From Yponomeuta sedellus (lineage: Eukaryota > Arthropoda > Insecta > Lepidoptera > Yponomeutidae), in assembly GCA_934045075.1 (NCBI GenBank), contig OW203750.1:10148729-10212728 (forward strand): a DNA stretch of 64,000 nucleotides. Direction: 5' to 3'. The first letter of the stretch is position 1. Each line of letters starts with the position of its first letter. This document shows, in pieces, positions 10,920 to 63,974 of the stretch. Both the position numbers and the translations under genes were made by a program. The notes below the pieces were generated by a model. That model searched no databases. It saw only the letters and a list, made by a program, of their open reading frames with translations, and was not told the origin of the DNA.

Positions 10920-11750
10920 TTTTTTTTTTTTTTTTTGGTAACGCGGGGGAATGCATTTACGCACTTCACCACTCTGCTGTCAGGGGACAACAGAGCGGCT
11001 TCGTGTGGGACTCCCAGCCCGAGGGCTGGACTACCCACTAAACCCCCGCGGTGATCCTCCTCTCCTCTACCGGGTCGCGGGGTAGGCCAAAGGTTAAGTC
11101 ACCGCGACCCGGCAAGAGGTCGCCCCTCCACGTGAGGGGCTCGACTGGTGGGGGAGCCAGAGTGGCTCCCCAGCGGCGCCCCCTGCCCCATCGCTACGAC
11201 GGGGCAAGGAAACGCCGCGTCTCCTCGGGGGGGCCATAAAGGCCCCCATACGCTCCAATGCGCCGCCCCCCCACATCACATTGCTAAAACAATGGGACTA
11301 GAGGGGGCGGCGCATCGCTGCGAGGCCCGTCGCGTCGCTCACCAACGCTTCTCTGAGAACAGAGAAGGTGGAGAGCGAGCGCGCGGGCCCTCTCTGTGCC
11401 GGAAGGCACCCCCGGATCACGCAGGGGCGCCTTCCGGCCCGCCGTGTTAGAGGCGGAGAGTCCCCTGACCCCCCGCCCACGGCACTGATCCGACTGGTAC
11501 GAGGCGCCCGGAGGCGCCCCCCCCAGCCGGACCTCCTCCTCTTGGTCGCTTGGGTCCCACTCCACGGTGTGAAGCAGGGCCCAAGCGACTAAACGGTCGC
11601 GGTGCTGCCCACACAGCACCGCCACCTACTGACCGCTCAACTCGCAAGCGAGGAGCGGTCCCTCCGCGGTTGCTCTTTGTTTCACCGTGGTCCCGCAACC
11701 ACGGCTACTAAAGCCCCCTCGCCACGACAAGGCGGCAACCGTCGAGGGGG
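10920..11750 (-). mobile_element. nM1: short non-coding minus-strand element with exact 13-bp TSD
   Basis: Type copy of the nM family. Read on the minus strand it begins CCCCCTCGACGGTTGCCGCC, runs through GC-rich stem-loop sequence, and ends with a family-C-like 3' UTR (hairpin GTGGG...CCCAC, then GCATTCCCCCGCGTTACC) and a poly(A) tail (T at 10920-10936). It has no credible ORF. The direct repeat ATACGTCTCGAGG is at 10907-10919 and 11751-11763, so the insertion hit the junction between the family-D 5' end and the first TTAGG. Confidence 0.85.
11665..11750 (-). ncRNA. candidate HDV-like self-cleaving ribozyme at the 5' end of nM elements
   Basis: From 11750 leftward the minus strand can be drawn as a double pseudoknot. 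P1 is CCCCCUC with GAGGGGG; P2 is CGGUUGC with the distal GCAACCG (11667-11673). P3 lies between the first P2 strand and the returning P1 strand, with a 6-7 nt loop. P4 is CCGUGG...CCACGG. The joining segment before the second P2 strand contains CAAAG here, CCAAG in most long copies and CUAAG in nM14, fitting the C-N-A-A core around the catalytic cytosine of HDV-like ribozymes. P4 loops vary in length while the stem pairs are kept. Cleavage just before P1 would give the observed element 5' end. Drawn by hand, untested. Confidence 0.5.
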
Positions 11751-11760
11751 ATACGTCTCG

Positions 11761-11780
11761 AGGTTAGGTTAGGTTAGGTT

Positions 11781-11783
<3 letters not shown>
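11761..11783 (+). repeat. telomeric (TTAGG)n, about 4 units
   Basis: Pure repeat between the nM1 target-site duplication and the poly(T) of the next family-D element. TTAGG on the plus strand puts the chromosome tip to the right. Confidence 0.9.
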
Positions 11784-11829
<46 letters not shown>

Positions 11830-11882
11830 CCGTAGGAGGAGGGGAATACTCATGTATACCGCCGTGCCCGTACACGGCGGCA

Positions 11883-11926
11883 TGCCCGACTCTACTAGGA
11901 AGGTACCCAGTAGCCTACGGACTAAA
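11883..11926 (-). other. 3'-UTR hairpin of the truncated family D element
   Basis: On the minus strand, GTTTAGTCCGTAGGC and later GAGTCGGGCA pair as GUCCG with CGGGC. This keeps the outer stem found in the other families with different bases. The inner hairpin sequence is unrelated to theirs. Confidence 0.5.
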
Positions 11927-12358
11927 CCCCTCCCCCTTTTCTAAATTTTCCTCCGATGTGGCGGTCGGAGCTCTTTTTCACCAATTCTGCATAATTACAT
12001 ATTCCTCTTTTATTTACTCTTATAATAATACTATTATGCACTTAAACTTATAGCTAATGTCTTATCTATTATCTTAATTCTATTAACAATATCCGCACAA
12101 TTGTGCTTAATCCTCTGTAACTTTATACCCACGAGGCTTTCCTTTTTTTTTTTTTTTAAGATTATTTTTTTTTTTTTTACCAAATTTCTTTTTTTTTTTT
12201 TTTTATATATATATTTATCTTTTAGCCTGCAAATTTTGTTATATAATCATTATATAACCATAATTCTGCTGTACTTCTTGTTTTTGTATAATCTATTGTT
12301 AGTCTAATTACCTCCTGATATATTATCATAATATACAGTTATAATTATTTCCTTATCC

Positions 12359-13886: not shown

Positions 13887-14971
13887 TTTTTTTTTTTTTT
13901 TTTGGTTACGCGGGGGAATGCATTTACGCACTTCACCGCTCTGCTGTCAGGGGACAACAGAGCGGCTTCGTGTGGGACTCCCAGCGACACGGAGCTGGCA
14001 TAACCTCCGTGACGACTGGACTACCCACTAAACCCCCGCGGTGATCCTCCTCTCCTCTACCGGGTCGCGGGGTAGGCCAAAGGTTAAATCACCGCGACCC
14101 GGCAAGAGGTCGCCCCTCCGCGTGAGGGGCTCGACTGGTGGGGGAGCCAGAGTGGCTCCCCAGCGGCGCCCCCTGCCCCATCGCAACGCCTCATACGATG
14201 GGGCAAGGAAACGCCGCGTCTCCTCGGGGGGGCCCTATAGGCCCCCATACGCTCCAACGCGCCGCCCTCCCCCGACCCATTGCTCATACAATAGGACAAG
14301 AGGAGGGCGGCGCATCGCTGCGAGGCCCGTCGCGTCGCTCACCAGCGCTTCTCTGATGAAGCAGAGAAGGTGGAGAGCGAGCGCGCGGGCCCTCTCTGTG
14401 CTGGAAGGCACCCCCGGATCACGCAGGGGCGCCTTCCGGCCCGCCGTGTTAGAGGCTGAGGGTCCCCTGACCCTCCACCCACGGCACTGGTCCGACTGGT
14501 ACGAGGCGCTCGGACGCCCCCCCCAGTCGGACCTCCTCCTCTTGGTCGCTTGGGTCCCACTCCACAATGTGAAGCAGGGCCCAAGCGACTAAACGGTCGC
14601 AGGGGATAGGGAGAGAGGCGCACCGCAATACCAGCACTCCTCTTCCCCTGCGACCCCACCGCGTCCGCCATCAACCGGTGGCGGCCCCGGTAAGGCCGCG
14701 GCAGGCAGGGAGAGCGGCGCACCGTAATACCGGCACTCCTCTCCCGCCGCGGCCTCCTCCTTACGGCTGCGATGCCGCCCATACGGCATCGCAGCCCGCC
14801 TCAGTGGCGGTGCTGCCCATACAGCACCGCCACCTACTGACCGCTCGACTCGCAAGCGAGGAGCGGTCCCTCCGCGGTTGCTCTTTGTTTCACCGTGGGT
14901 GTGCTCCAGCCCTTAGGCCCCCACGGCTACTTAGCCCCCTCGCCACGACAAGGCGGCAACCGTCGAGGGGG
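13887..14971 (-). mobile_element. nM2: long-form nM element with exact 13-bp TSD
   Basis: Inserted at the boundary between the truncated family-D element and TTAGG. The repeat ACCCCACTCGTGG flanks it at 13874-13886 and 14972-14984. It is the long form: it carries about 210 extra bases of repeated stem-loops compared with nM1. The inner arm of its 3' hairpin is replaced by a longer one (CACGGAG...CTCCGTG), while the outer GTGGG/CCCAC stem is unchanged. Confidence 0.85.
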
Positions 14972-14984
14972 ACCCCACTCGTGG

Positions 14985-15009: not shown

Positions 15010-16057
15010 TTTTTTTTTTTTTTTGGTAACGCGGGGGAATGCATTTACGCACTTCACCACTCTGCTGTCAGGGGACAACAGAGCGGCTTCGTGTGGGACT
15101 CCCAGCCCGAGGGCTGGACTACCCACTAAACCCCCGCGGTGATCCTCCTCTCCTCTACCGGGTCGCGGGGTAGGCCAAAGGTTAAGTCACCGCGACCCGG
15201 CAAGAGGTCGCCCCACTGGAGGGGCTTGACTGGTGGGGGAGCCAGAGTGGCTCCCCAGCGGCGCCCCCTGCCCCATCGCAACGATGGAGCAAGGGAACGC
15301 CGCGTCTCCTCAGGGGGGCCATATAGGCCCCCATACGCTCCAATGCGCCGCCCCCCCCCATCCCATTGCTAAAACAATGGGACTAGAGGGGGCGGCGCAT
15401 CGCTGCGAGGCCCGTCGCGTCGCTCACCAGCGCTTCTCTGAGAACAGAGAAGGTGGAGAGCGAGCGCGCGGGCCCTCTCTGTGCTGGAAGGCACCCCCGG
15501 ATCACGCAGGGGCGCCTTCCGGCCCGCCGTGTTAGAGGCGGAGAGTCCCCTGACCCCCCGCCCACGGCACTGGTCCGACTGGTACGAGGCGCCCGGAGGC
15601 GCCCCCCCCCAGCCGGACCTCCTCCTCTTGGTCGCTTGGGTCCCACTCCACGGTGTGAAGCAGGGCCCAAGCGACTAAACGGTCGCAGGGGACAGGGAGA
15701 GAGGCGCACCGCAATACCAGCACTCCTCTTCCCCTGCGACCCCACCGCGTCCGCCATCAACCGATGGCGGCCCCGGTAAGGCCGCGGCAGGCAGGGAGAG
15801 CGGCGCACCGTAATACCGGCACTCCTCTCCCGCCGCGGCCTCCTCCCTTCGGCTGCGATGCCGCCCATACGGCATCGCAGCCCGCCTCAGTGGCGGTGCT
15901 GCCCATACAGCACCGCCACCTACTGACCGCTCGACTCGCAAGCGAGGAGCGGTCCCTCCGCGGTTGCTCTTGGTTTCACCGTGGGTGTGTTCCCGCCCGT
16001 AGGCCCCCACGGCTACTTAGCCCCCTCGCCACGACAAGGCGGCAACCGTCGAGGGGG
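15010..16057 (-). mobile_element. nM3: long-form nM element
   Basis: Poly(T) from 15010 joins TTAGG; the 5' end is followed by AGGTTAGGTTAGG at 16058-16070, as a 13-bp duplication inside telomeric repeats would leave. The P4 arm of the ribozyme-like 5' region is the long version (CCGTGGG...CCCACGG). Confidence 0.85.
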
Positions 16058-16075
16058 AGGTTAGGTTAGGTTAGG
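16058..16075 (+). repeat. telomeric (TTAGG)n, 3 units
   Basis: AGG plus three TTAGG units between nM3 and nM4. Confidence 0.9.
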
Positions 16076-17125
16076 TTTTTTTTTTTTTTGGTAACGCGGG
16101 GGAATGCATTTACGCACTTCACCACTCTGCTGTCAGGGGACAACAGAGCGGCTTCGTGTGGGACTCCCAGCCCGAGGGCTGGACTACCCACTAAACCCCC
16201 GCGGTGATCCTCCTCTCCTCTACCGGGTCGCGGGGTAGGCCAAAGGTTAAATCACCGCGACCCGGCAAGAGGTCGCCCCTCCACGTGAGGGGCTCGACTG
16301 GTGGGGGAGCCAAAGTGGCTCCCCAGCGGCGCCCCCTGCCCCATCGCTACGACGGGGCAAGGAAACGCCGCGTCTCCTCGGGGGGGCCATATAGGCCCCC
16401 ATACGCTCCAATGCGCCGCCCCCCCCCATCCCATTGCTAAAACAATGGGACTAGAGGGGGCGGCGCATCGCTGCGAGGCCCGTCGCGTCGCTCACCAGCG
16501 CTTCTCTGATGAAGCAGAGAAGGTGGAGAGCGAGCGCGCGGGCCCTCTCTGTGCCGGAAGGCACCCCCGGATCACGCAGGGGCGCCTTCCGGCCCGCCGT
16601 GTTACAGGAGGAGAGTCCCCTGACCCTCCGCCCACGGCCCTGGTCCGACTGATACGAGGCGCACAAGGCGCCCCCCCCAGCCGAACCTCCTCCTCTTGGT
16701 CGCCCGGGTCCCGCTCCACAGTGTGAATCAGGGCCCAGGCGACTAGACGGTCGCAGGGGATAGGGAGAGAGGCGCACCGCTATACCAGCACTCCTCTTCC
16801 CCTGCGACCCCACCGCGTCCGCCATCAACCGGTGGCGGCCCCGGTAAGGCCGCGGCAGGCAGGGAGAGCGGCGCACCGTAATACCGGCACTCCTCTCCCG
16901 CCGCGGCCTCCTCCCTTCGGCTGCGATGCCGCCCATACGACATCGCAGCCCGCCTCAGTGGCGGTGCTGCCCATACAGCACCGCCACCTACTGACCGCTC
17001 GACTCGCAAGCGAGGAGCGGTCCCTCCGCGGTTGCTCTTGGTTTCACCGTGGGTGTGTTCCCGCCCGTAGGCCCCCACGGCTACTTAGCCCCCTCGCCAC
17101 GACAAGGCGGCAACCGTCGAGGGGG
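16076..17125 (-). mobile_element. nM4: long-form nM element
   Basis: Poly(T) from 16076. On the right, GGTTAGGTTAGG (one base short of the expected duplication) leads straight into the poly(T) of nM5 at 17138. Close in sequence to nM3. Confidence 0.85.
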
Positions 17126-17137
17126 GGTTAGGTTAGG

Positions 17138-17969
17138 TTTTTTTTTTTTTTTTTTTGGTAACGCGGGGGAATGCATTTACGCACTTCACCACTCTGCTGT
17201 CAGGGGACAACAGAGCGGCTTCGTGTGGGACTCCCAGCCCGAGGGCTGGACTACCCACTAAACCCCCGCGGTGATCCTCCTCTCCTCTACCGGGTCGCGG
17301 GGTAGGCCAAAGGTTAAGTCACCGCGACCCGGCAAGAGGTCGCCCCTCCACGTGAGGGGCTCGACTGGTGGGGGAGCCAAAGTGGCTCCCAGCGGCGCCC
17401 CCTGCCCCATCGCTACGACGGGGCAAGGAAACGCCGCGTCTCCTCGGGGGGGGCATAAAGGCCCCCATACGCTCCAATGCGCCGCCCCCCCACATCACAT
17501 TGCTAAAACAATGGGACTAGAGGGGGCGGCGCATCGCTGCGAGGCCCGTCGCGTCGCTCACCAGCGCTTCTCTGAGAACAGAGAAGGTGGAGAGCGAGCG
17601 CGCGGGCCCTCTCTCTGCCGGAAGGCACCCCCGGATCACGCAGGGGCGCCTTCCGGCCCGCCGTGTTAGAGGCGGAGAGTCCCCTGACCCCCCGCCCACG
17701 GCACTGATCCGACTGGTACGAGGCGCCCGGAGGCGCCCCCCCCAGCCGGACCTCCTCCTCTTGGTCGCTTGGGTCCCACTCCACGGTGTGAAGCAGGGCC
17801 CAAGCGACTAAACGGTCGCGGTGCTGCCCAAACAGCACCGCCACCTACTGACCGCTCAACTCGCAAGCGAGGAGCGGTCCCTCCGCGGTTGCTCTTTGTT
17901 TCACCGTGGTCCCGCAACCACGGCTACTAAAGCCCCCTCGCCACGACAAGGCGGCAACCGTCGAGGGGG
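17138..17969 (-). mobile_element. nM5: short-form nM element hit by nM6 at its 5' junction
   Basis: Short form like nM1. Its right flank, followed across nM6, reads GGGTTAGGTTAGG, which equals the 13 bases left of its poly(T). The element's 5' end is immediately followed by the nM6 insertion. Confidence 0.8.
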
Positions 17970-17972
17970 GGG

Positions 17973-18132
17973 TTTTTTTTTTTTTTTGGTAACGCGGGGG
18001 AATGCATTTACGCACTTCACCACTCTGCTGTCAGGGGACAACAGAGCGGCTTCGTGTGGGACTCCCAGCCCGAGGGCTGGACTACCCACTAAACCCCCGC
18101 GGTGATCCTCCTCTCCTCTACCGGGTCGCGGG
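17973..18132 (-). mobile_element. nM6: 160-bp 5'-truncated nM element with 13-bp TSD
   Basis: Only the poly(A) tail and about 140 bp of 3' UTR are present. The repeat GTCGAGGGGGGGG occurs at 17960-17972 and 18133-18145, so it landed on the nM5/TTAGG boundary. Unlike the other nM copies it lacks the ribozyme-like 5' end, which shows that ordinary 5' truncation also happens. Confidence 0.85.
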
Positions 18133-18155
18133 GTCGAGGGGGGGGTTAGGTTAGG

Positions 18156-18984
18156 TTTTTTTTTTTTTTTGGTAACGCGGGGGAATGCATTTACGCACTT
18201 CACCACTCTGCTGTCAGGGGACAACAGAGCGGCTTCGTGTGGGACTCCCAGCCCAAGGGCTGGACTACCCACTAAACCCCCGCGGTGATCCTCCTCTCCT
18301 CTACCGGGTCGCGGGGTAGGCCAAAGGTTAAGTCACCGCGACCCGGCAAGAGGTCGCCCCTCCACGTGAGGGGCTCGACTAGTGGGGGAGCCAAAGTGGC
18401 TCCCCAGCGGCGCCCCCTGCCCTATCGCTACGACGGGGCAAGGAAACGCCGCGTCTCCTCGGGGGGGCCATAAGGGCCCCCATACGCTCCAATGCGCCGC
18501 CCCCCCACATCACATTGCTAAAACAATGGGACTAGAGGGGGCGGCGAATCGCTGCGAGGCCCGTCGCGTCGCTCACCAGCGCTTCTCTGAGAACAGAGAA
18601 GGTGGAGAGCGAGCGCGCGGGCCCTCTCTGTGCCGGAAGGCACCCCCGGATCACGCAGGGGCGCCCTCCGGCCCGCCGTGTTAGAGGCGGAGAGTCCCCT
18701 GACCCCCCGCCCACGGCACTGATCCGACTGGTACGAGGCGCCCGGAGGCGCCCCCCCCAGCCGGACCTCCTCCTCTTGGTCGCTTGGGTCCCACTCCACG
18801 GTGTGAAGCAGGGCCCAAGCGACTAAACGGTCGCGGTGCTGCCCAAACAGCACCGCCACCTACTGACCGCTCAACTCGCAAGCGAGGAGCGGTCCCTCCG
18901 CGGTTGCTCTTTGTTTCACCGTGGTCCCGCAACCACGGCTACTAAAGCCCCCTCGCCACGACAAGGCGGCAACCGTCGAGGGGG
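18156..18984 (-). mobile_element. nM7: short-form nM element
   Basis: Poly(T) follows two TTAGG units (18146-18155). The right flank, followed across nM8, is AGGGTTAGGTTAGG, matching the left flank over 13 bases with one extra A. One base change sits in the conserved body (CGAATCGC instead of CGCATCGC near 18545). Confidence 0.8.
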
Positions 18985-18988
18985 AGGG

Positions 18989-20061
18989 TTTTTTTTTTTT
19001 TTTTGGTAACGCGGGGGAATGCATTTACGCACTTCACCACTCTGCTGTCAGGGGACAACAGAGCGGCTTCGTGTGGGACTCCCAGCGACACGGAGCTGGC
19101 ATAACCTCCGTGACGACTGGACTACCCACTAAACCCCCGCGGTGATCCTCCTCTCCTCTACCGGGTCGCGGGGTAGGCCAAAGGTTAAGTCACCGCGACC
19201 CGGCAAGAGGTCGCCCCTCCACGTGAGGGGCTCGACTGGTGGGGGAGCCAAAGTGGCTCCCCAGCGGCGCCCCCTGCCCCATCGCAACGCCTCATACGAT
19301 GGGGCAAGGAAACGCCGCGTCTCCTCGGGGGGGCCCTATAGGCCCCCATACGCTCCAACGCGCCGCCCTCCCCCGACCCATTGCCCATACAATAGGACAA
19401 GAGGAGGGCGGCGCATCGCTGCGAGGCCCGCGCGTCGCTCACCAGCGCTTCTCTGATGAAGCAGAGAAGGTGGAGAGCGAGCGCGCGGGCCCTCTCTGTG
19501 CCGGAAGGCACCCCCGGATCACGCAGGGGCGCCCTCCGGCCCGCCGTGTTAGAGGCTGAGGGTCCCCTGACCCTCCGCCCACGGCACTGGTCCGACTGGT
19601 ATGAGGCGCTCGAAGGCGCCCCCCCCAGCCAGACCTCCTCCTCTTGGTCGCCCGGGTCCCGCTCCACAGTGTGAAGCAGGGCCCAGGCGACTAGACGGTC
19701 GCAGGGGATAGGGAGAGAGGCGCACCGCTATACCAACACTCCTCCTCCCCTGCGACCCCACCGCGTCCGCCATCAGCCGGTGGCGGCCCCGGTAAGGCCG
19801 CGGCAGGTAGGGAGAGCGGCGCACCGTAATACCGGCACTCCTCTCCCGCCGCGGCCTCCTCCTTACGGCTGCGATGCCGCCCATACGGCATCGCAGCCCG
19901 CCTCAGTGGCGGTGCTGCCCATACAGCACCGCCACCTACTGACCGCTCGACTCGCAAGCGAGGAGCGGTCCCTCCGCGGTTGCTCTTGGTTTCACCGTGG
20001 CGGTCCTGAACCACGGCTACTTAGCCCCCTCGCCACGACAAGGCGGCAACCGTCGAGGGGG
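18989..20061 (-). mobile_element. nM8: long-form nM element with exact 13-bp TSD
   Basis: Inserted at the nM7/TTAGG boundary: TCGAGGGGGAGGG at 18976-18988 and 20062-20074. It has the alternative long inner arm in the 3' hairpin seen in nM2 and nM14, and a distinct P4 loop in the 5' region (CCGTGG...CCACGG with a 10-nt loop). Confidence 0.85.
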
Positions 20062-20074
20062 TCGAGGGGGAGGG

Positions 20075-20106
20075 TTAGGTTAGGTTAGGTTAGGTTAGGT
20101 TAGGTT
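20075..20106 (+). repeat. telomeric (TTAGG)n, 6 units
   Basis: Pure repeat between nM8 and the 5' end of the first full-length family-A element. Confidence 0.9.
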
Positions 20107-20554
20107 TCCGTGTGGAGTTTCTGGTCTCCCATCGGACGCGTCCCCAGGTGGCGGATAGGGGAACGCCCTCCAGATATGGGGGGTACCGGCTTCGGCCGGC
20201 GCGGACCAAAACCAGGTGGTGGGGGCGTCCAGTGGCAGCCTGCCACTGGAGGTCCGGCGTGGTCCAATTCGGACTCTGCACTTGGCGGCGGGCTCGGTAT
20301 GTGCGCTTGCGCAGTTACCGGGCAGGCTTCAGCCACCGTCGGCAAACCCGGAATCCCACATTGAGTGGCCCGGGGGCTTTCGGGCTGCGAGGAGAAAACC
20401 TCTATAAAAAATCCCCAATCCCAAGCTTAGACGCCCGGCGATGGGATGCATGGCTGGTGGGTGACCAGTCGTGAGGGCGTCCTTATCCGTCCGCCGTAGA
20501 GCGGGCGTGTTTTGACGGGTCTGCGCTCCACCCAAAGGAGCGCAAAAAAGCATT

Positions 20555-52502: not shown

Positions 52503-52557
52503 CGGGGGCCTTCGGGCGGTGGGTCGGGGGGCCCGCCGCTCGACAAAGAGGTCCCGT

Positions 52558-52724: not shown

Positions 52725-52766
52725 TTTAGTCGGTATACCGCCCTTTTCAGGGCGGGGAGTCCGACA
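52725..52766 (+). other. main 3'-UTR hairpin of family B
   Basis: TTTAGTCGGTATACC and GGGGAGTCCGACA, inner hairpin CCGCCC/GGGCGG. The outer stem is GUCGG/CCGAC where A and C have GUGGG/CCCAC, a two-sided change. All nP elements carry this version. Confidence 0.65.
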
Positions 52767-52822
52767 TAACCACTGTGCTCCCCCGAGCCGGTGGTACCCG
52801 TAATTGGGGTTTCTCCTGGGTG

Positions 52823-52881
<59 letters not shown>

Positions 52882-52891
52882 TTAGGTTAGG

Positions 52892-53715
52892 TTTTTTTTT
52901 TTTTTTGGTTACGCGGGGGAATGCATTTACGCACTTCACCGCTCTGCTGTCAGGGGACAACAGAGCGGCTTCGTGTGGGACTCCCAGCGACACGGAGCTG
53001 GCATAACCTCCGTGACGACTGGACTACCCACTAAACCCCCGCGGTGATCCTCCTCTCCTCTACCGGGTCGCGGGCTAGGCCATAGGCTAAATCACCGCGA
53101 CCCGGCAAGAGGTCGCCCCGTGAGGGGCTCGACTGGTGGGGGAGCCAGAGTGACTCCCCAGCGGCGCCCCCTGCCCCATCGCAACGCCTCATACGATGGG
53201 GCAAGGAAACGCCGCGTCTCCTCAGGGGGGCCCTATAGGCCCCCATACGCTCCAACGCGCCGCCCCCCCCCGACCCATTGCCCATACAATAGGACAGGAG
53301 GAGGGCAGCGCATCGCTGCGAGGCCCGTCGCGTCGCTCACCAGCGCTTCTCTGATGAAGCAGAGAAGGTGGAGAGCGAGCGCGCGGGCCCTCTCTGTGCT
53401 GGAAGGCACCCCCGGATCACGCAGGGGCGCCTTCCAGCCCGCCGTGTTAGAGGCGGAGGGTCCCCTGACCCTCCGCCCACGGCCCTCTGATCCGACTGGT
53501 ACGAGGCGCACGAGGCGCCCCCCCCAGCCGGACCTCCTACTCTTGGTCGCCTGGGTCCCGCTCCACGGTGTGAAGCAGGGCCCAAGCGACGCCACCTCCG
53601 ACCGCTCCAAGGAGCGGTCCCTCCGTGGTTGCTCTTAGTTTCACCGTGGGTGGCCGTCTAACACCCACGGCTACTTAGCCCCCTCGCCACGACAAGGCGG
53701 CAACCGTCGAGGGGG
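52892..53715 (-). mobile_element. nM14: diverged nM element
   Basis: 824 bp, with an internal deletion that removes the mid-body repeats of the long form. It has a variant core (CUAAG) in the ribozyme-like region and a longer P4 stem (CCGTGGGTG...CACCCACGG). The inner arm of its 3' hairpin is the long type of nM2 and nM8. Sits right behind the family-B tail. Confidence 0.85.
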
Positions 53716-53723
53716 AGGTTAGG

Positions 53724-54772
53724 TTTTTTTTTTTTTTTTTGGTAACGCGGGGGAATGCATTTACGCACTTCACCACTCTGCTGTCAGGGGACAACAGAGC
53801 GGCTTCGTGTGGGACTCCCAGCCCGAGGGCTGGACTACCCACTAAACCCCCGCGGTGATCCTCCTCTCCTCTACCGGGTCGCGGGGTAGGCCAAAGGTTA
53901 AGTCACCGCGACCCGGCAAGAGGTCGCCCCACTGGAGGGGCTCGACTGGTGGGGGAGCCAGAGTGGCTCCCCAGCGGCGCCCCCTGCCCCATCGCAACGA
54001 CGGAGCAAGGGAACGCCGCGTCTCCTCAGGGGGGCCATATAGGCCCCCATACGCTCCAATGCGCCGCCCCCCCACATCACATTGCTAAAACAATGGGACT
54101 AGAGGGGGCGGCGCATCGCTGCGAGGCCCGTCGCGTCGCTCACCAGCGCTTCTCTGAGAACAGAGAAGGTGGAGAGCGAGCGCGCGGGCCCTCTCTGTGC
54201 CGGAAGGCACCCCCGGATCACGCAGGGGCGCCTTCCGGCCCGCCGTGTTAGAGGAGGAGAGTCCCCTGACCCCCCGCCCACGGCACTGATCCGACTGGTA
54301 CGAGGCGCCCGGAGGCGCCCCCCCCAGCCGGACCTCCTCATCTTGGTCGCTTGGGTCCCACTCCACGGTGTGAAGCAGGGCCCAAGCGACTAAACGGTCG
54401 CAGGGGACAGGGAGAGAGGCGCACCGCAATACCAGCACTCCTCTTCCCCTGCGACCCCACCGCGTCCGCCATCAACCGGTGGCGGCCCCGGTAAGGCCGC
54501 GGCAGGCAGGGAGAGCGGCGCACCGTAATACCGGCACTCCTCTCCCGCCGCGGCCTCCTCCTTACGGCTGCGATGCCGCCCATACGACATCGCAGCCCGC
54601 CTCAGTGGCGGTGCTGCCCATACAGCACCGCCACCTACTGACCGCTCGACTCGCAAGCGAGGAGCGGTCCCTCCGCGGTTGCTCTTGGTTTCACCGTGGG
54701 TGTGTTCCCGCCCGTAGGCCCCCACGGCTACTTAGCCCCCTCGCCACGACAAGGCGGCAACCGTCGAGGGGG
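53724..54772 (-). mobile_element. nM15: long-form nM element nested at the nM14 junction
   Basis: AGGGGGAGGTTAGG occurs at 53710-53723 and 54773-54786, so the insertion hit the first TTAGG after nM14 and duplicated 13-14 bp. Confidence 0.85.
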
Positions 54773-54791
54773 AGGGGGAGGTTAGGTTAGG

Positions 54792-55617
54792 TTTTTTTTT
54801 TTTGGTAACGCGGGGGAATGCATTTACGCACTTCACCACTCTGCTGTCAGGGGACAACAGAGCGGCTTCGTGTGGGACTCCCAGCCCGAGGGCTGGACTA
54901 CCCACTAAACCCCCGCGGTGATCCTCCTCTCCTCTACCGGGTCGCGGGGTAGGCCAAAGGTTAAGTCACCGCGACCCGGCAAGAGGTCGCCCCTCCACGT
55001 GAGGGGCTCGACTGGTGGGGGAGCCAAAGTGGCTCCCCAGCGGCGCCCCCTGCCCCATCGCTACGACGGGGCAAGGAAACGCCGCGTCTCCTCGGGGGGG
55101 CCATAAAGGCCCCCATACGCTCCAATGCGCCGCCCCCCCACATCACATTGCTAAAACAATGGGACTAGAGGGGGCGGCGCATCGCTGCGAGGCCCGTCGC
55201 GTCGCTCACCAACGCTTCTCTGAGAACAGAGAAGGTGGAGAGCGAGCGCGCGGGCCCTCTCTGTGCCGGAAGGCACCCCCGGATCACGCAGGGGCGCCTT
55301 CCGGCCCGCCGTGTTAGAGGCGGAGAGTCCCCTGACCCCCCGCCCACGGCACTGATCCGACTGGTACGAGGCGCCCGGAGGCGCCCCCCCCAGCCAGACC
55401 TCCTCCTCTTGGTCGCTTGGGTCCCACTCCACGGTGTGAAGCAGGGCCCAAGCGACTAAACGGTCGCGGTGCTGCCCATGCAGCACCGCCACCTACTGAC
55501 CGCTCAACTCGCAAGCGAGGAGCGGTCCCTCCGCGGTTGCTCTTTGTTTCACCGTGGTCCCGCAACCACGGCTACTAAAGCCCCCTCGCCACGACAAGGC
55601 GGCAACCGTCGAGGGGG
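54792..55617 (-). mobile_element. nM16: short-form nM element
   Basis: Follows one TTAGG unit after the nM15 duplication. The right side continues AGGTTAGGTTAGG into the longest telomeric run. Close to nM1. Confidence 0.85.
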
Positions 55618-55662
55618 AGGTTAGGTTAGGTTAGGTTAGGTTAGGTTAGGTTAGGTTAGGTT
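55618..55662 (+). repeat. telomeric (TTAGG)n, 9 units
   Basis: The longest pure telomeric run in the window, only 45 bp. Confidence 0.9.
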
Positions 55663-56115
55663 GGGGTTCCGTGTGGAGTTTCTGGTCTCCCATCGGACGC
55701 GTCCCCAGGTGGCGGATAGGGGAACGCCCTCCAGATATGGGGGGTACCGGCTTCGGCCGGCGCGGACCAAAACCAGGTGGTGGGGGCGTCCAGTGGCAGC
55801 CTGCCACTGGAGGTCCGGCGTGGTCCAATTCGGACTCTGCACTTGGCGGCGGGCTCGGTATGTGCGCTTGCGCAGTTACCGGGCAGGCTTCAGCCACCGT
55901 CGGCAAACCCGGAATCCCACATTGAGTGGCCCGGGGGCTTTCGGGCTGCGAGGAGAAAACCTCTATAAAAAATCCCCAATCCCAAGCTTAGACGCCCGGC
56001 GATGGGATGCATGGCTGGTGGGTGACCAGTCGTGAGGGCGTCCTTATCCGTCCGCCGTAGAGCGGGCGTGTTTTGACGGGTCTGCGCTCCACCCAAAGGA
56101 GCGCAAAAAAGCATT

Positions 56116-58377
56116 ATGTCAAATACGGACAATGGAACTGGTTCCCGGGTGGGTCCCCGAAAGGGGGAATCCCACCTCTCTGCTTCGGCGGAGAGCTGCC
56201 CCGTAGTATACGGGAGGGGCAACAAATGCTTTAAGGACGGGCAGACCGCCCGTCCTCACCCCTACGACCATGGCAAGAAAACCGGCAAACCGATGCGAGA
56301 CGCCTCCGGGCGTTTCCTCTCCCAAACGGCCCTTCTCAGGGCCAACCCCGACCCCGATCCTGACGATGCCGAGGCGTCGGAGGATGGACGCGCACCATCT
56401 GCGGCCAGCCAGGTGGAACTGGACCTGTCGGACACCGACGGTAACGCCTCTGCGGCGGAACTGCCGAACCGACGGGCCAACAAACGGGCCTTCCTGAGGC
56501 AGAGTTCGGCGGGCTCCTCCGACTCGGCCAAAAGTGGCCCCAGGAAGAAGGGGAAGACCAAGAAGTCGTCGACCCCTGCCGTGGCTAGCTCCAGCCACGA
56601 TGTCGGCTTGCTGGAGGCTCAGCTGCATCTCGAGGCAGCCAACAGGGCGCAGCTCGAGTTGGAGCTCGAGGAGCAGGTCGCCGCCAGGGAGGAGCAGGCG
56701 CGCGTCCGCAGGGCTAAGACGGGCTACGGCTCGTCAAAAGTCCTGTACGCGGACTACTCCCTGGCGGAGCTAGAGGCGGTGGCCAAGGAGGACCAAGAGG
56801 AGATCGTAAGGGTCGCCTCGAAATCCTCCAACCAGAAGGGTACCTTTCAGAAGGCCCTCAAATGCCGGGCTGCCAGCATGCGCGATATCGTGTGCGAGAT
56901 GGCGCAACGCACGACCAACGACGAAGTGGGGCAACTGCAGGCGAGGGTCGATCGCCTGCAGAAGGAGGTCAGCGAGCTTCACAAGAAGCTCGCTGAAGCT
57001 ACGGCGCAGCCCGTTGGGGCCCCGCCGACAGCGCCGGCGGTCGACCTCTCCTCCTCCAAACTTGAGGAAATTATCCTCAAGGTAGTAAGAGAGGAGAGGG
57101 CGTTCACCAGAGCCTGCATAGCGGGCATAGAGGACAGGCTCCTGCCTGAGAAGCGTGTCCGCCCGCCACTCGCAGCGGACAAGTCGGCGCCTGTCCCGGC
57201 CCCGGCCCCGATGGCTCCTCCCCCGATCCCGAAGCCCTCAAAGGGCAAGGGCAAGGGGAAGAAGTCGCCGGCGGCCCCACCCGCACCAGTGGCGGAACGG
57301 GAGGCTGAACCGGCGGCGGTTCCTAGCACGCGCCTACAGAGGGACGACGCCTTCCTCCCCTCCACCACCCCGTCCAACGAATCGTGGACTGGGGTGGTCA
57401 GGAGGAAGAGGAGAGGCGCCAAGAACGCGGTGTCGGCCGTTGCCCCCCCTGCCAATACCCCTCCCGGCCCGTCGAAGGCGACGGGCAAGGGACAGGGGAA
57501 AGGTAGGGGGAAGAATTCGGCCCCCAAGCCAGCCGGGGGGAAACTTGTTCCTCCCAAAACTGCGGCCGTCGTAGTGACGCTCACTGCGGAGGCCGTGGAG
57601 AGGGGCGAGACGTACGAGTCCGTTCTGAAACGGGCTCGTACCAACGTCGACCCCGCTGCGCTGGGGATTGGACCGGTGACGTGCCGCCTGACCCAAACCG
57701 GGGCTCGACTGTTCGAGTTCCCGGGGGCCAAACGCATCGAGAACGCTGACCTCTTCGCGGCAAAGATGCAAGAGGTCATAGCGGATGTGGCCAAGGTGGT
57801 CAGGCCCACCAAGACCGCGACCTTGGAGGTGACCGGCCTCGACGACTCAGTCACCAATGAGGAGGTGGTGACTGCGGTCGCAACTGTGGGAGGCTGCGAG
57901 GCGGCGGCGGTGCGGGGCCGGGCCATCAGACCGGGCCGCGGCGGTCTGGGCACTATGCGTCTGGAGTGCCCAGTCGCAGCCGCGAAGGCTGTCCTGGCCA
58001 AAGGGCGGCTCCCCGTGGGCTTCGGAGTGGCCGCTGTGCGGGCGCTTGAAAGCATGCCTTTCCGCTGCTTCAAGTGCCTCGGAGTCGGTCACACCAGAGC
58101 TCTGTGCCAGTCCCGTGTGGACAGGTCGGAGCTCTGTCACCGCTGCGGGGAGGCGGGGCACAAGGCGAACGCCTGCGGCGTGGCCTCGCCACGCTGCGCC
58201 GTCTGCTCCGCCAGCGGCCGCCCAGCCGACCACGTGATGGCGGGGAGGAGATGTAATCCTCCCCCAAAGAAGGGGCAGAAGCAGGTGCCAGCCCGGCCTG
58301 CTTCTACCGCCGTCGCCGTTGGGCCCACCGAGGTTCCGCCGCCGCCGGCCGATGAGGGAAGTGCGATGGACCAGTAA
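56116..58377 (+). CDS. family A copy 3 ORF1: gag-like protein
   Basis: 753 residues. I noted three differences from copy 1: SSNLKG to SSNQKG, WTGMVRR to WTGVVRR and TGPRLFE to TGARLFE. Coiled-coil region and all three CCHC knuckles are unchanged. The stop again shares its last base with the ORF2 ATG (TAATG at 58375-58379). Confidence 0.9.
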   Translation: MSNTDNGTGSRVGPRKGESHLSASAESCPVVYGRGNKCFKDGQTARPHPYDHGKKTGKPMRDASGRFLSQTALLRANPDPDPDDAEASEDGRAPSAASQVELDLSDTDGNASAAELPNRRANKRAFLRQSSAGSSDSAKSGPRKKGKTKKSSTPAVASSSHDVGLLEAQLHLEAANRAQLELELEEQVAAREEQARVRRAKTGYGSSKVLYADYSLAELEAVAKEDQEEIVRVASKSSNQKGTFQKALKCRAASMRDIVCEMAQRTTNDEVGQLQARVDRLQKEVSELHKKLAEATAQPVGAPPTAPAVDLSSSKLEEIILKVVREERAFTRACIAGIEDRLLPEKRVRPPLAADKSAPVPAPAPMAPPPIPKPSKGKGKGKKSPAAPPAPVAEREAEPAAVPSTRLQRDDAFLPSTTPSNESWTGVVRRKRRGAKNAVSAVAPPANTPPGPSKATGKGQGKGRGKNSAPKPAGGKLVPPKTAAVVVTLTAEAVERGETYESVLKRARTNVDPAALGIGPVTCRLTQTGARLFEFPGAKRIENADLFAAKMQEVIADVAKVVRPTKTATLEVTGLDDSVTNEEVVTAVATVGGCEAAAVRGRAIRPGRGGLGTMRLECPVAAAKAVLAKGRLPVGFGVAAVRALESMPFRCFKCLGVGHTRALCQSRVDRSELCHRCGEAGHKANACGVASPRCAVCSASGRPADHVMAGRRCNPPPKKGQKQVPARPASTAVAVGPTEVPPPPADEGSAMDQ

Positions 58378-61300
58378 TGGGTAGGGTCCATCGCATTTTA
58401 CAGGCGAACACCAACCACTGCCGAGTGGCCCAGGACCTACTGGTCCAGGTCATGGCCGAGTGGTTGGTGGACGTGGCGGTGGTCGCCGAGCCGTACTCCG
58501 TCCCTGGCCGCTGGCTAGGAGATAGGGACGGCTCGGTGGCGCTCGTGGCGCGGTCTTCCACGGACTCCCCTCCCCTCTCGCTCTTAGAGAGGGGACCGGG
58601 ATACGTGGCCGCCGCGTGGGGAGAGATAGCCTTTGTGGGCGTATATCTCTCCCCGAACCGCCCACTGTCGGACTTCGAGGATTTTCTCGGAGTCCTCGCC
58701 GCAGTGGTCGGCAGGGTGGGTTCGCGTCAGGTCTCCGTCCTGGGAGACCTGAACGCCAAATCGGTGGCGTGGGGCAACCCGGCCACGGACGCGCGCGGGC
58801 GGGAGCTGGAGCTCTGGGCGGCCTCCTCCGGTCTCTCCCTCTTGAACAGGGGGAGCGTCCACACGTGCGTGCGACGGTGGGGCGGGTCAGTCGTGGATGT
58901 CACCTTTGCATCCCCCGCACTAGCTGCGCGTGTGGACAACTGGCGGGTGGACATGGTGGAGACTTTCTCGGACCACCGCTACGTGCGGTTCGAGATCTCC
59001 ACCCAGAGCCCCCAGGGAGGGGCCCCGCCGGGCCAATCCCCATTCCCTCGGTGGGCTCTCGTCCACCTGGACAGGGAGGCAGCCGGGGAGGCGGCCTTCG
59101 TCCAGGACTGGCTTTCGCCGGCGCTAAATGTCCTGGACGTGGACGCCGCCGCGGCCGGGCTGAGGGGTTCGTTGACCGAGGTATGCAACTCAAGCATGCC
59201 TCGGTCACGTCGTCGGCCCCCCCGACGCGCCGTCCACTGGTGGTCGGAGGAGTTGGCGGGTCTCCGGGCCGACTGCGTAGCGGCCCGTCGGGAGTACGCC
59301 AGGAGTCGGCGGCGGCGAGTGCGCGACCAGGCCAACGAGGACCGCCTTTACGACCTATACGTGGGCGCAAAGGGGGTCCTCAGGTCTGCAATACTCGCCG
59401 CCCAGGACTCGTCACGAGACGAGCTCCTGGAGGGTCTCGACAACGACCCTTTCGGGAGGCCGTATAAGGCGGCGCGGAACAAACTGCGCCCCTTTGGCCC
59501 CCCACTGTCGGAGACCCTCGAGCCGGCATTGCTGGACGGGGTGGTCCGGTCCCTGTTTCCGGACAGGGCCAACTTCACCCCGCCAGTGATGGATCCTCCC
59601 CGGGCCGAAGCTCAGCAGGAGGAGGAGGAGGTCCCTCCTCTCACGGAGGCCGAATTTTGTGAGGTGGCGCTCCGCCTCCGCGCGAAGAAGACGGCCCCCG
59701 GGCCGGATGGCGTCCCCGCTAGGGTGGTGGCAATAGCTGCCACCCGGATGGTGGACAGATTTCGGGACCTCTTTGACGCGTGTCTTGCGTCGGGGAGGTT
59801 CCCGAAACCTTGGAAGGAGGGGCAGCTGTGCCTCCTTCGTAAGGAAGGGCGCCCGGCGGACTCCCCCTCGGCATGCCGGCCCATCGTCTTGCTCGATGAG
59901 GTCGGTAAGATGTTCGAGGGGATCATCGCCGGCCGCCTGAACGAGCACCTGCGCGTGGTCGGGCCGGACCTCTCGGACGCTCAGTACGGTTTCCGGACTG
60001 AGCGTTCGACAGTGGACGCCCTGGCCCTACTAAAGGGCCAGGTGAAGGAGGCCATGGGCGCCGGGGATGGAGTGTTGGCTGTGTCTTTCGACATAGCCAA
60101 CGCTTTCAACTCCATCCCCCATCCCACCGTCCTCGAGGCGCTCCGTTTCCACGGAGTGCCTCGATATTTGCGGGGCCTTCTGGCGAACTACTTGGAGGAC
60201 CGAGTGGTCCTCCTCGTGGACAAGGCTGGCCGGCTCCGGCGATATAGCGTCGAATCCGGTGTTCCGCAGGGGTCGGTCTTAGGACCTCTTCTCTGGAACA
60301 TCGGGTTCGACTGGTTGTTGCGGGGAACCCTCCTCCGGGGCACGAGCGTCATCTGCTATGCAGATGACACTCTCCTCACCGCCCGGGGAGGGAACTTTAG
60401 GGAGGCGGCCAGTTTGGCCTCGGCGGGCGGATCCTTAACAGCAGGGAGGATCCGCCGCCTAGGGCTGAGGGTGGCGCTGCACAAGACCGAGGCCGTGTTC
60501 TTTCACGGTCCCAAGCAGCGCCTCCCGCCTGACGCCCACATCTTCGTGGAAGGCGTCAGGGTTGAGGTGAAGGCCCAGATGAAATATCTGGGCCTGACTC
60601 TGGACAGCAGGTGGCGCTTCGGTCCGCACTTCAGCGGACTGTCGTCGCGCCTGCTGAAGGCGGCGAGGGCCCTCTCATGGCTCATGCCGAATTTGGGAGG
60701 GCCGAGTGGGCGATGCCGGCGGCTGTACGCCGGCATTCTGAGGAGCATGGCCCTGTACGGGGCGCCCATCTGGGCAGACTCCCTCCAGAGGAGGGAAAAT
60801 GCCACAGCGCTCCGGGCGCCTCAAAGGGCCATCGCCCAGAGGGTGGCGCGAAGCTACCGCTCGGTAGGCTTCGCGGCAGCCTGCGCTCTGGCGGGCACCC
60901 CGCCTTGGGAGCTAGAGGCGTGGGTGCTCGCCAGAGTGCACGAATGGACGGTGGCGCGAAGAGCGCGCGGGGAGCGCCCCGCTCCTGAGGAACGGGCGGC
61001 TGTCAGGCGGGAGGCGATGGAAGCCGTCATCCACCACTGGAGGGCGGCCCTCGCCACCGCAACGTTCGGCCGCCGAACCCTGGACGCGCTCGGGCCGGTC
61101 CTTCAGGACTGGCTCGAGCGGTCGCACGGTTTCCTCTCTTTCCGGCTGGTGCAGGTGCTGTCCGGGCACGGATGCTTCGGTTCGTACCTGCACCGGATCG
61201 GGAGAGAGGAAAGTCCGGGGTGCCAGGACTGCGGCGCGGCGTATGACACGGCGCAGCACATCCTTGAGGTGTGCCCGTCGCTGTCCGAGCGGCGCCGCAG

Positions 61301-61505
61301 TCTAATCGCCGTGGTTGGGCCGGACCTCTCGCTGCCCGGCTTGGTAAATGCCATGCTGGGTAGCGAGGAGGCGTGGACGGCGGTCGCCTCCTTCTGTGAG
61401 GACGTGATGTCGCAGAGGGAGGAGGCGGAGCGTGCGCGGGAGAACGATCCTCTCGCGCCGCTGCTCCGCCGTCGAAAGAGGGGCGGGAGAGGGCGGACAC
61501 GTTAG
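58377..61505 (+). CDS. family A copy 3 ORF2: endonuclease-reverse transcriptase with a Y500C change
   Basis: 1042 residues, the same as copy 1 except that the conserved RT motif AYRPIVLL reads ACRPIVLL (codon 59874-59876). All other copies here, in three families, have Y at this place, so the change may weaken polymerase activity. Endonuclease motifs, YADD and the terminal CQDC...H...C are intact. Confidence 0.9.
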   Translation: MGRVHRILQANTNHCRVAQDLLVQVMAEWLVDVAVVAEPYSVPGRWLGDRDGSVALVARSSTDSPPLSLLERGPGYVAAAWGEIAFVGVYLSPNRPLSDFEDFLGVLAAVVGRVGSRQVSVLGDLNAKSVAWGNPATDARGRELELWAASSGLSLLNRGSVHTCVRRWGGSVVDVTFASPALAARVDNWRVDMVETFSDHRYVRFEISTQSPQGGAPPGQSPFPRWALVHLDREAAGEAAFVQDWLSPALNVLDVDAAAAGLRGSLTEVCNSSMPRSRRRPPRRAVHWWSEELAGLRADCVAARREYARSRRRRVRDQANEDRLYDLYVGAKGVLRSAILAAQDSSRDELLEGLDNDPFGRPYKAARNKLRPFGPPLSETLEPALLDGVVRSLFPDRANFTPPVMDPPRAEAQQEEEEVPPLTEAEFCEVALRLRAKKTAPGPDGVPARVVAIAATRMVDRFRDLFDACLASGRFPKPWKEGQLCLLRKEGRPADSPSACRPIVLLDEVGKMFEGIIAGRLNEHLRVVGPDLSDAQYGFRTERSTVDALALLKGQVKEAMGAGDGVLAVSFDIANAFNSIPHPTVLEALRFHGVPRYLRGLLANYLEDRVVLLVDKAGRLRRYSVESGVPQGSVLGPLLWNIGFDWLLRGTLLRGTSVICYADDTLLTARGGNFREAASLASAGGSLTAGRIRRLGLRVALHKTEAVFFHGPKQRLPPDAHIFVEGVRVEVKAQMKYLGLTLDSRWRFGPHFSGLSSRLLKAARALSWLMPNLGGPSGRCRRLYAGILRSMALYGAPIWADSLQRRENATALRAPQRAIAQRVARSYRSVGFAAACALAGTPPWELEAWVLARVHEWTVARRARGERPAPEERAAVRREAMEAVIHHWRAALATATFGRRTLDALGPVLQDWLERSHGFLSFRLVQVLSGHGCFGSYLHRIGREESPGCQDCGAAYDTAQHILEVCPSLSERRRSLIAVVGPDLSLPGLVNAMLGSEEAWTAVASFCEDVMSQREEAERARENDPLAPLLRRRKRGGRGRTR

Positions 61506-61769
61506 CGTCCCCCTTCCTCTCGCTCCATGGTGATGAGCAGCGGGCGACAGGTGCGGGGGCGCCCTCGCCCGCATTGCACCGCTCATCACCGAGCCGTACG
61601 AGGATGACCGAGCACCCACGGTTGTCCTCGGGCCCCTCCCCGTAAAGGGCGGGGCGCGTCGGGCCCGCCGTGCCTAGGCGGGCAATCGCCGGCGGGGGAC
61701 TGGAAGTAAAGGCTGTGCCGGTTTCCCAGACCCCCGCCACTAAAGGCGACGAGGGGTGCCGCTGGGTTG

Positions 61770-61812
61770 TTTAGTGGGTATACCGGGAACCGCTTTCCCG
61801 GGGAGTCCCACA
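61770..61812 (+). other. 3'-UTR hairpin of family A copy 3
   Basis: Identical to copies 1 and 2. Confidence 0.6.
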
Positions 61813-61866
61813 TACTCTCTCCCGTCCCCCGACGGGGGGGAGATGCGTAACGCATTTTTCCCAGCG

Positions 61867-61926
<60 letters not shown>

Positions 61927-61938
61927 TTAGGTTAGGTT

Positions 61939-63020
61939 GGGGTGCGATGCCAGATAACCTTCACGTGTACCCCTCCGCTTTCCGTTCCATCTGATTCTAT
62001 GAACCAGGTGGAGGGGCAAGTGGTGGGGTCGGTGCACCCTGAGCGTTAGTCAGTAAGTTGTTAACGGAACTTACTGGCTAACGGCGAATAATCTGGCGGG
62101 AGGGGTCGCGTGGGCCCTGTTTCACTTTGTGGAGCGGGACCCAGGCGACCAACCGATTGAAGGACCGACTGGGGGGGGCGCCGCTGCGCGAAAGCGCGCG
62201 CGCCTCGTACCAGTCGGACCAGAGTGGCCGTGGGCGGAGGGTCGGGGGACCCTCTGCCTCCATCACGGCGGGAGGGGTCGCGTGGGCCCTGTTTCACTTT
62301 GTGGAGCGGGACCCAGGCGACCAACCGAATGAAGGACCGACTGGGGGGGGCGCCGCTGCGCGAAAGCGCGCGCGCGCATCGTACCAGTCGGACCAGAGTG
62401 GCCGCCGGGACGCGGAGGGTCGGGGGACCCTCTGCCTCCATCATGGCGGGCCGGAAGGCGCCCTTGCGTGTTCCGAGGGTGCCTTCTGGCACGGAGGGGG
62501 CCCGCGCGGTCGCTCACCGCCTTCTCTGCTTTCAGAGAAGTGCTGGTGGGCGACGTGACGGGCCTCGAGTGTGGGGCGTGTGGGGGCCAACAGTTGACAT
62601 TGGCCCCCATGCGCCCCAACGAGGAGGTGCGCCGCCCTCCTCTAATCCCATTGGACCACACAACAATGGGATGGAGGGGGCGGCGCGTTGGGGCGTGTGG
62701 TGGCCAAGGGGTTCGCACTTGGCCACTATGCGCTCCAACGAAGAGATGCGGCGTTCCCTCGCCCCGTCGTTCGGTCCGATGCGATGGGGCAGGGGCGCCG
62801 CCGAAGGAGTGCCCGAAAGGGCGCCCGCAGACGGGGTCGCGGAAGTGTGCGTAAGCGTCCCCGTGGCCCCGTCCTTTGCGGTGCGGAGGAACACCCCAGG
62901 AGTTTTAGTCGGTATACCGCCCTTTTCAGGGCGGGGAGTCCGACATAACCACTGTGCTCCCCCGAGCCGGTGGTACCCGTAATTGGGGTTTCTCCTGGGT
63001 GAAAAAAAAAAAAAAAAAAA
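61939..63020 (+). mobile_element. nP5: short plus-strand element with internal duplication
   Basis: Sister copy of nP4, sharing its private variants, and placed right behind a family-A tail. Poly(A) 63002-63020. Confidence 0.8.
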
Positions 63021-63029
63021 GGTTAGGTT

Positions 63030-63913
63030 GGGGTGCGATGCCAGATTACCTTCCCGTGTGCCCTTCCGCTTCCGTTCCTACTGATTCATTTTTGAACCAG
63101 TAGGAAGGGTAAGTGGCAAGGGCCGGTGCACCCTGGGCGCTGGTCAGTAACTTCTCTTTATGAGATCTTGCTGGCCAGCGGCGAAAAATCTGGCGGGAGG
63201 GGTCGCGTGGGCCCTGTTTCACTTTGTGGAGCGGGACCCAGGCGACCAACCGAATGAAGGACCGACTGGGGGGGGCGCCGCTGCGCGGAAGCGCGCGCGC
63301 CTCGTACCAGTCGGACCAGAGTGGCCGCCGGGACGCGGAGGGTCGGGGGACTCTCCGCGTCCATCACGGCGGGCCGGAAGGCGCCCTTGCGTGTTCCGAG
63401 GGTGCCTTCTGGCACGGAGGGGGCCCGCGCGGTCGCTCACCGCCTTCTCTGCTTTCAGAGAAGTGCTGGTGGGCGACGTGACGGGCCTCACGTGTGGGGC
63501 GTGTGGGGACCGGGCCTTGGGCCCCCACGCGCCTCAACGAGGAGGTGCGCCGCCCTCCCCGTCTCATCGACCGGGTTGCGATGGGATGGAGGGGGCGGCG
63601 CGTTGGGGCGTATGGGGGCCAAGATCATACGCACTTGGCCCCTATGCGCTCCAACGAAGAGATGCGGCGTTTTCTAGCCCCGTCGTCGAGCACCGACGGG
63701 GCAGAAGCGCCGCCGAAGGAGTGCCCGAAAGGGCGCCCGCAGACGGGGTCGCGGAAGTGTGCGCAAGCGTTCCCGTGGCCCCGTCCTTTGCGGTGCGGAG
63801 GAACACCCCAGGAGTTTTAGTCGGTATACCGCCCTTATCAGGGCGGGGAGTCCGACATAACCACTGTGCTCCCCCGAGCCGGTGGTACCCGTAATTGGGG
63901 TTTCTCCTGGGTG

Positions 63914-63974
<61 letters not shown>
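63030..63974 (+). mobile_element. nP6: short plus-strand element, single-unit form, 61-base tail
   Basis: Most like nP3. Small changes include a five-T run in the first hairpin loop (TTCATTTTTGAACC) and TTATCA in place of TTTTCA in the loop of the 3' hairpin, which leaves the stem intact. Poly(A) 63914-63974 is the longest pure tail in the window. Confidence 0.8.

Follow-up and report, generated by a model that had tools for sequence, protein, structure and literature searches.

How can elements that share one body come to lie in opposite directions within the same telomeric repeat? This question is raised by a window of 64,000 nt from the moth Yponomeuta sedellus (contig OW203750.1, labelled C31, positions 10148729–10212728; assembly GCA_934045075.1, 657.5 Mb in 57 contigs), which from about 10.9 kb onward is mostly an array of retroelements with short plus-strand TTAGG runs between them. 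The array holds long interspersed nuclear elements (LINEs) A, B and C and two sets of shorter elements, the minus-strand nM and the plus-strand nP, whose full copies in the window measure 829–1101 nt. The 16 nM and 6 nP copies listed in a preliminary description, made from the sequence alone, were all found in place; 15 of the nM copies reach the usual 5′ end and one, truncated at the 5′ end, consists of a tail only (17973–18145). Based on the homologies set out below, nM, nP and a third set, nQ, probably form a single family of passengers, hybrid and internally deleted, that accompany SART-clade telomere-specific LINEs and resemble short internally deleted elements (SIDEs). The data come from one genome and mainly from two contig ends. 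Since all telomere-repeat runs of at least three units in the window read TTAGG on the plus strand (12 of 12, with 0 reading CCTAA), the two insertion directions are not the result of an inversion of the array.

Self-comparison revealed inverted matches of about 270–290 bp between nM and nP, at 79–82% identity, which become collinear when each element is read in its own sense. The type copy of nM, nM4 (16076–17127, minus strand), comprises a head (16968–17127), a core (16473–16743), a C tail (16090–16279) and poly(A) (16076–16089), and that of nP, nP3 (42161–43076, plus strand), an F-type head (42161–42325), a core (42334–42621), a middle part (42622–42846), a B tail (42847–43047) and poly(A) (43048–43076). 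When Smith-Waterman scores were judged against 500 dinucleotide shuffles, the nM4 core aligned to nP3 with a score of 297 (shuffle maximum 37), and the 186 nt following the core in nM and nP scored 83 (shuffle maximum 31). The bodies thus align as the preliminary description had claimed, and the motifs that it quoted lie within our core alignment (A2). As the scores far exceed those of the shuffles, the match is not GC-rich low complexity, an outcome that it had named as fatal to its reading; the other, that nM and nP might be internal deletions of autonomous elements, applies in part, the 3′ part of the core being homologous to the 3′ untranslated region (UTR) of LINE C and weakly to that of LINE B.

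This partial homology invites the explanation that nM and nP are separate internal deletions of two related LINEs, whose ancestral 3′ UTR supplied the core, with no tail swap at all. The 3′ part of the core scored 122 (nM) and 164 (nP) against the C 3′ UTR (shuffle maxima 32 and 31), where the homologous stretch lies at 31976–32103 on the minus strand, and 46 and 55, respectively, against the B 3′ UTR (shuffle maxima 33 and 34); by the same measure there was no homology to the A 3′ UTR. However, nP owns a B tail and its core nevertheless resembles C (164) far more than B (55), and nM and nP share an upstream hairpin that is absent from the C rows of the alignment. A core tree was built from 47 rows taken from two contig ends, namely 36 distinct nM sequences (49 hits), five distinct nP sequences (13 hits), a pair of repeats from a single nQ copy and four C 3′ UTR rows. 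It separated the 43 nM, nP and nQ rows from the four C rows with a support of 96.8/91 and united the nP cores in one group (84.6/94). Identities were 82.5–87.3% between nM and nP cores, as opposed to 67.6–72.0% between nM and C and 70.2–71.2% between nP and C. Cumulatively, these values make separate deletions unlikely and bear out the single homologous core with separate 3′ tails that the preliminary description had anticipated.

The tails themselves match those of two different LINEs, again as proposed earlier. In nM4 and nM5 the tail is 89% identical to that of C over 190 nt, and in the nM14 subtype 79% over 213 nt, while the tails of nP3 and nP1 are 98% identical to that of B over 201 nt; tails C and B are themselves distantly alike (Smith-Waterman score 39, shuffle maximum 32). 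The 5′ heads of nM and nP are unrelated (score 17, shuffle mean 18). The head of nP3 corresponds to the 5′ end of a plus-strand LINE on contig C1, LINE F (93% identity over 190 nt; 79% over 203 nt for the nP1 head), and in windows of 60 nt nP3 is F-like up to position ~160 of the element, nM-like up to ~690 and B-like thereafter. An F-type head (92.6% identity) was also seen at L004:1495–1844 on contig C1, at about 22.78 Mb, in a short TTAGG run within a TTATG repeat; it lies far from the contig end and is an interstitial insertion. By eye, LINE F carries a 17-nt look-alike of the upstream core at the collinear position just past the shared head.

Further evidence that the modules are exchangeable comes from nQ, found in two copies on contigs C1 and C31, both in the plus direction. 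These join an nP head (99% identity; 90% to LINE F over 192 nt) to two or three tandem copies of an nM-like core (mean identity 86% to nM and 80% to nP) and to a tail, Q, which differs from tails A, B and C and of which a further fragment is present on contig C1 (96.7%). Because nQ combines an nM-like core with a Q tail, core and tail are separable, and because it lies opposite to nM, direction follows the tail and not the core. The hybrid build of nQ, evident from the window scores, already weakens the case for separate deletions. A LINE-derived 5′ end was thus found in nP and nQ and, in our sample, not in nM, and a 3′ tail from a partner LINE, expected of hybrid SIDEs and short interspersed nuclear elements (SINEs) alike, in nM (C) and nP (B).

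Direction was counted in 304 kb near seven contig ends, a 3′ end being an exact end motif followed by at least 6 A. Within this sample the link between tail and direction is strict: all 69 C tails read in sense along the C-rich strand (65 at right contig ends and four, mirrored, at the left end C10), and the G-rich strand carries the sense of all 14 B, all 6 A and all 3 Q tails, with two of the A tails lying on C10. The left end C10, with its four C and two A tails, is a mirror image of the right ends; three of the seven stretches (C3, C4 and C5) contain none of these 3′ ends. The same picture emerged from the cores, when those of at least 200 nt were retained at ≥75% identity, or at 70–75% if nM-like, and shorter fragments and LINE 3′ UTRs were left out. 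Among the 76 cores, 59 combine nM head, nM core and tail C, 13 nP head, nP core and tail B, and two nP head, nM-like core and tail Q, the remaining two being incomplete nM. The preliminary description was therefore right that the tail goes with direction; its picture of two swapped tails was too narrow, since three or more tails occur and the exchange extends to the heads.

Such a link could also be a founder effect, each family having started once and having been multiplied by DNA duplication, with no rule binding enzyme to tail. Duplication is evident: a segment of ~8.5 kb at 19906–28374, carrying A, nP1 and nP2, recurs at 55463–63931 (8486 aligned columns, 98.8% identity), so that direction and copy counts are inflated, and the 69 C ends show 49 different downstream contexts of 60 nt (B 9, A 5, Q 3). 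Still, the 49 contexts lie on four contig ends, poly(A) lengths vary and the left end is mirrored, which together indicate many separate insertions and leave the founder effect improbable. In a separate count over 224 kb (tail ends: C 58, B 14, A 4, Q 2), 46 of the 58 C tails join CCTAAC and 9 others a sequence beginning with CC; the SART-type junction, poly(A)-(A)GGTTAGG, is not that of C tails.

In the silkworm telomeric elements, SART is reported to join its poly(A) to AGG, and the insertion direction of TRAS is the reverse of that of SART (PMC7265360). The ORF2 (second open reading frame) tree of 13 rows resolved two groups with 100/100 support, one of E-type elements (five, all minus) and one SART-like, in which C groups with A, B, F, H and J (all plus), the inner branching being mostly unresolved. 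Between B and C 63% of ORF2 residues are identical, and 64.5% in the endonuclease part; with A, the ORF2s of B and C share less (55% and 52%). Scored against the TRAS1 endonuclease (1wdu), E reached 286.3 bits, B 55.4 and C 44.5, so a TRAS-like endonuclease was not found in C. From its ORF2 grouping and low 1wdu score, LINE C appears to be a SART-side element with TRAS polarity, as judged by the polarity of its tree partners in a comparison that includes no named SART sequence. Further, the first ~320–580 nt of A, B and C (20105–20685, 46480–46801 and 37500–38078) are 91–96% identical; their 5′ UTRs are nearly the same though their ORF2s differ by 37–48%, which indicates that ends have been exchanged among the LINEs as well. 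As these 5′ UTRs are alike and C yet inserts the opposite way, the head does not set direction.

To account for these observations, we propose that each element is built of three modules, with a head at the 5′ end, a structured RNA core common to all and a tail at the 3′ end. The head of nP and nQ, taken from the 5′ end of LINE F, would supply the promoter and start, the core would derive in part from a B/C-type 3′ UTR, and the tail would come from LINE C in nM, from LINE B in nP and, in nQ, from a LINE not seen in the sample. SART1 proteins are reported to mobilise a reporter in trans if it carries the SART1 3′ UTR (PMC7265360); by analogy, the tail would be recognised and bound by the ORF2 protein of the partner LINE, which would nick the TTAGG array on the strand preferred by its endonuclease and start reverse transcription from the poly(A). 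If the strand nicked is the G-rich one for C and the C-rich one for B, the tail would decide the direction. The exchange of modules may have come about through template jumps of the reverse transcriptase (RT) or recombination within arrays, two routes considered in a report on SIDEs (PMC3414825). In its most specific form, which we offer tentatively and to which we give slightly less than an even chance, this amounts to a 3′-tail address code, whereby one non-coding RNA body, maintained for its structure, would reach either telomere strand depending on a short, exchangeable tail that matches it to B or to C, sister enzymes nicking opposite strands of the repeat. If true, the direction of insertion would be encoded in the tail and open to evolution, and B and C would constitute a natural matched pair for finding the residues responsible for strand choice.

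Tails A, B, C and Q have a hairpin in common, with the outer stem GTGGG/CCCAC (GTCGG/CCGAC in B) and differing inner stems. The search pattern for this hairpin was written from these same tails, and gave two extra matches that no known tail follows. Pairing is also conserved in the core. In the 12 rows of alignment A2, from which the structure was derived and which therefore favour it, the consensus contains 94 pairs with 96.6% of cells paired (shuffle mean 95.3) and 9 pairs changed on both sides (shuffle mean 3.9), neither value being attained in any of 500 shuffles, and versions of the structure slid along the alignment were only 43–49% paired. Strong pairing with compensatory changes would also be expected if the core were a functional host RNA, e.g. 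a telomere transcript, that LINE ends had picked up on several occasions. We give this very little credence, as a gathering-score scan of the window against Rfam returned no match of note for the core and part of the core resides within LINE 3′ UTRs.

The claim of the preliminary description that nM and nP lack coding capacity is likely but not proven, judging from the sequence comparisons. The longest sense ATG frame would encode 196 aa for nM and 244 aa for nP. Differences among nP copies show no third-codon-position bias and indels break the frame between nP types, both speaking against coding, and the one frame tested with Pfam, that of nP4, had no match; the length of the frames, considered below, points the other way. 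The core was also tried as a remnant of an ORF, and this was rejected, since eight LINE protein pieces, compared with nM and nP by tblastn, yielded a best E of 0.06.

Short, probably non-coding elements with LINE-shared 3′ tails and, in nP and nQ, one B-box-like match near the 5′ end with one mismatch might be regarded as true SINEs, transcribed by RNA polymerase III (Pol III) and provided with a telomere address; indeed, the preliminary description called them SINE-like. This reading finds little room in the data. The scans revealed no match to tRNA, 5S or 7SL RNA in the elements and hence no Pol III head of such origin, nM4 and nM5 contain no B box within two mismatches, and a Pol III promoter was rejected as a candidate on these grounds. 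Moreover, the head of nP comes from the 5′ end of a LINE, and full copies are long (829–1101 nt). Since heads as well as tails have been exchanged, hybrid SIDEs fit better than Pol III SINEs, and we consider the latter very improbable. A self-cleaving ribozyme had been suspected because the termini might pair, yet none was matched in Rfam at the 5′ ends of B, nP3 and nM13, bearing in mind that a sequence model can miss diverged ones.

Several observations weigh against the interpretation of nM, nP and nQ as one family of hybrid passengers addressed by their tails. Searched against six LINEs, the nM head yielded only a 20-nt match at chance level, and none of 24 comparisons of the upstream half of the core with LINE 5′ UTRs exceeded the shuffle maximum. 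The LINE owning tail Q was not found in the sampled contig ends, and the node joining nM with nQ in the core tree is unsupported (0/16). Tails B and C appear to adopt the same hairpin fold, so that it is not obvious how an enzyme would discriminate between them. Among the 58 C-tail ends, one is followed by non-telomeric sequence and two run into a broken A tract, and a large share of the copy number is due to segmental duplication. Further pair types in the core were not more numerous than in shuffles (459 of 500). Finally, in five elements no more than 1–11 of 300 shuffles gave frames as long, an argument for coding.

The preliminary description knew of no described system with this layout. 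The literature offers precedents for its ingredients in R2/R1 hybrid SIDEs, chimeric moth SINEs, MoTeR2 and SARTr. A common body with exchanged heads or tails is a feature of CORE-SINEs. Among the closest are the R2/R1 hybrid SIDEs of Drosophila ribosomal DNA (rDNA), which, like the elements described here, combine the 5′ end of one target-specific LINE with the 3′ end of another, the site following the 3′ end; judging from them, a non-autonomous element may be directed to the site of another LINE by a 3′ end that is not its own (PMC3414825). They differ in their rDNA target and 5′ ribozyme, as opposed to telomere repeats, two directions, a shared core, at least three tails and no ribozyme match in the present case. 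SART1 and TRAS1 of Bombyx mori are likewise telomere-repeat LINEs of opposite direction, with the SART1 3′ UTR recognised in trans, but they are autonomous, and C has TRAS polarity without a TRAS endonuclease sequence (PMC7265360). A silkworm SART lineage, SARTr, seems to insert in reverse as C does, a likeness drawn from its description only, and the excerpt mentions no non-autonomous passenger (PMC10088271). In Magnaporthe, MoTeR2 is also a telomere element without RT and shares both ends with its autonomous partner; it differs in having one partner and in forming arrays of invariable head-to-tail order, in which 5′ ends face the chromosome terminus (PMC7367193). The SINEs HaSE1, HaSE2 and HaSE3 of Helicoverpa have a common body with exchanged heads or tails as well, yet the heads are of tRNA or 5S origin, and the abstract makes no mention of telomere targeting (PMC3272025). 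Another lepidopteran SIDE with a LINE partner, Persaeus with CR1 Zenon, has a single partner family and, in the excerpt, no mention of target specificity (PMC6740152). No insect telomere-specific SINE or non-autonomous SART/TRAS partner was found in titles and abstract openings, a search with little subscription coverage and weak as evidence of absence. Thus, the ingredients are known, and their combination, one core with swapped heads and tails inserted in two directions in one repeat, appears new.

The abundance of nM and nP, 16 and 6 copies in a window where A, B and C together have seven, full or truncated, suggests that telomere LINEs support a guild of passengers that outnumbers them. 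With related cores, different tails and opposite insertion, these passengers would amount to natural swap experiments, and two related ORF2 proteins of opposite direction offer material for mapping strand choice; the core and the common tail hairpin are candidate structured RNA elements whose pairing is testable. All this is relevant to how insect chromosome ends form where repeats and retroelements mix.

The complete order of elements in the window, delimited by self-comparison, is as follows. On the minus strand, the non-autonomous, C-tailed nM1 (10920–11763) is followed by nM2 (13887–14984), nM3 (15010–16060), the type copy nM4, the short form nM5 (17138–17972), the tail-only nM6, nM7 (18156–18988) and nM8 (18989–20074). 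LINE A, SART-like with an ORF1 of 753 aa and an ORF2 of 1042 aa (20105–26357), then occupies the plus strand together with nP1, B-tailed and with part of its core duplicated (26358–27453), and nP2 (27454–28374). The minus strand resumes with two 5′-truncated copies of C (28397–29593 and 29604–30773), nM9 (30774–31656), LINE C, assigned to the SART clade with TRAS polarity (31672–38080; C tail 31688–31877; ORF2 of 1050 aa), nM10 (38096–39157), nM11 (39158–40000), nM12 (40016–41067) and nM13 (41068–42125). After nP3 the plus strand carries a 5′-truncated A (43094–45351), nP4 (45352–46452) and LINE B, also SART-like (46480–52879; ORF1 791 aa, ORF2 1051 aa, B tail 52622–52822). There follow nM14, the subtype with a longer tail hairpin (52892–53723), nM15 (53724–54781) and nM16 (54792–55620) on the minus strand and, on the plus strand, the second copy of LINE A, inside the 8.5-kb duplication (55661–61924), nP5 (61937–63020) and nP6 (63021–63974).

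Some additional observations concern the autonomous elements. In the window, ORF1 of LINE C is broken up over two frames (35260–37631, minus strand), and in another C copy on contig C31 (72888–75302 of the joined stretch) it is open over 805 codons. TRAS-type LINEs of the E group are present at 4984–8094 (minus strand) of the window and in L009–L024, with open frames of up to 1289 codons. A scan of viral contigs with the B ORF2 gave no match. Rfam family mir-3389 matches 51227–51293 (minus strand; 87.4 bits) in antisense within the ORF2 of LINE B, so that this family may be SART-derived and not a miRNA gene. Finally, an AT-rich element of 359 nt with a poly(A) of 46 nt (11784–12142, minus strand), of which there is no second copy among the matches listed, adjoins TTAGG and contains at 11832–12000 a match to RF00524, the R2 3′ RNA element, at 45.7 bits with a gathering score of 38.

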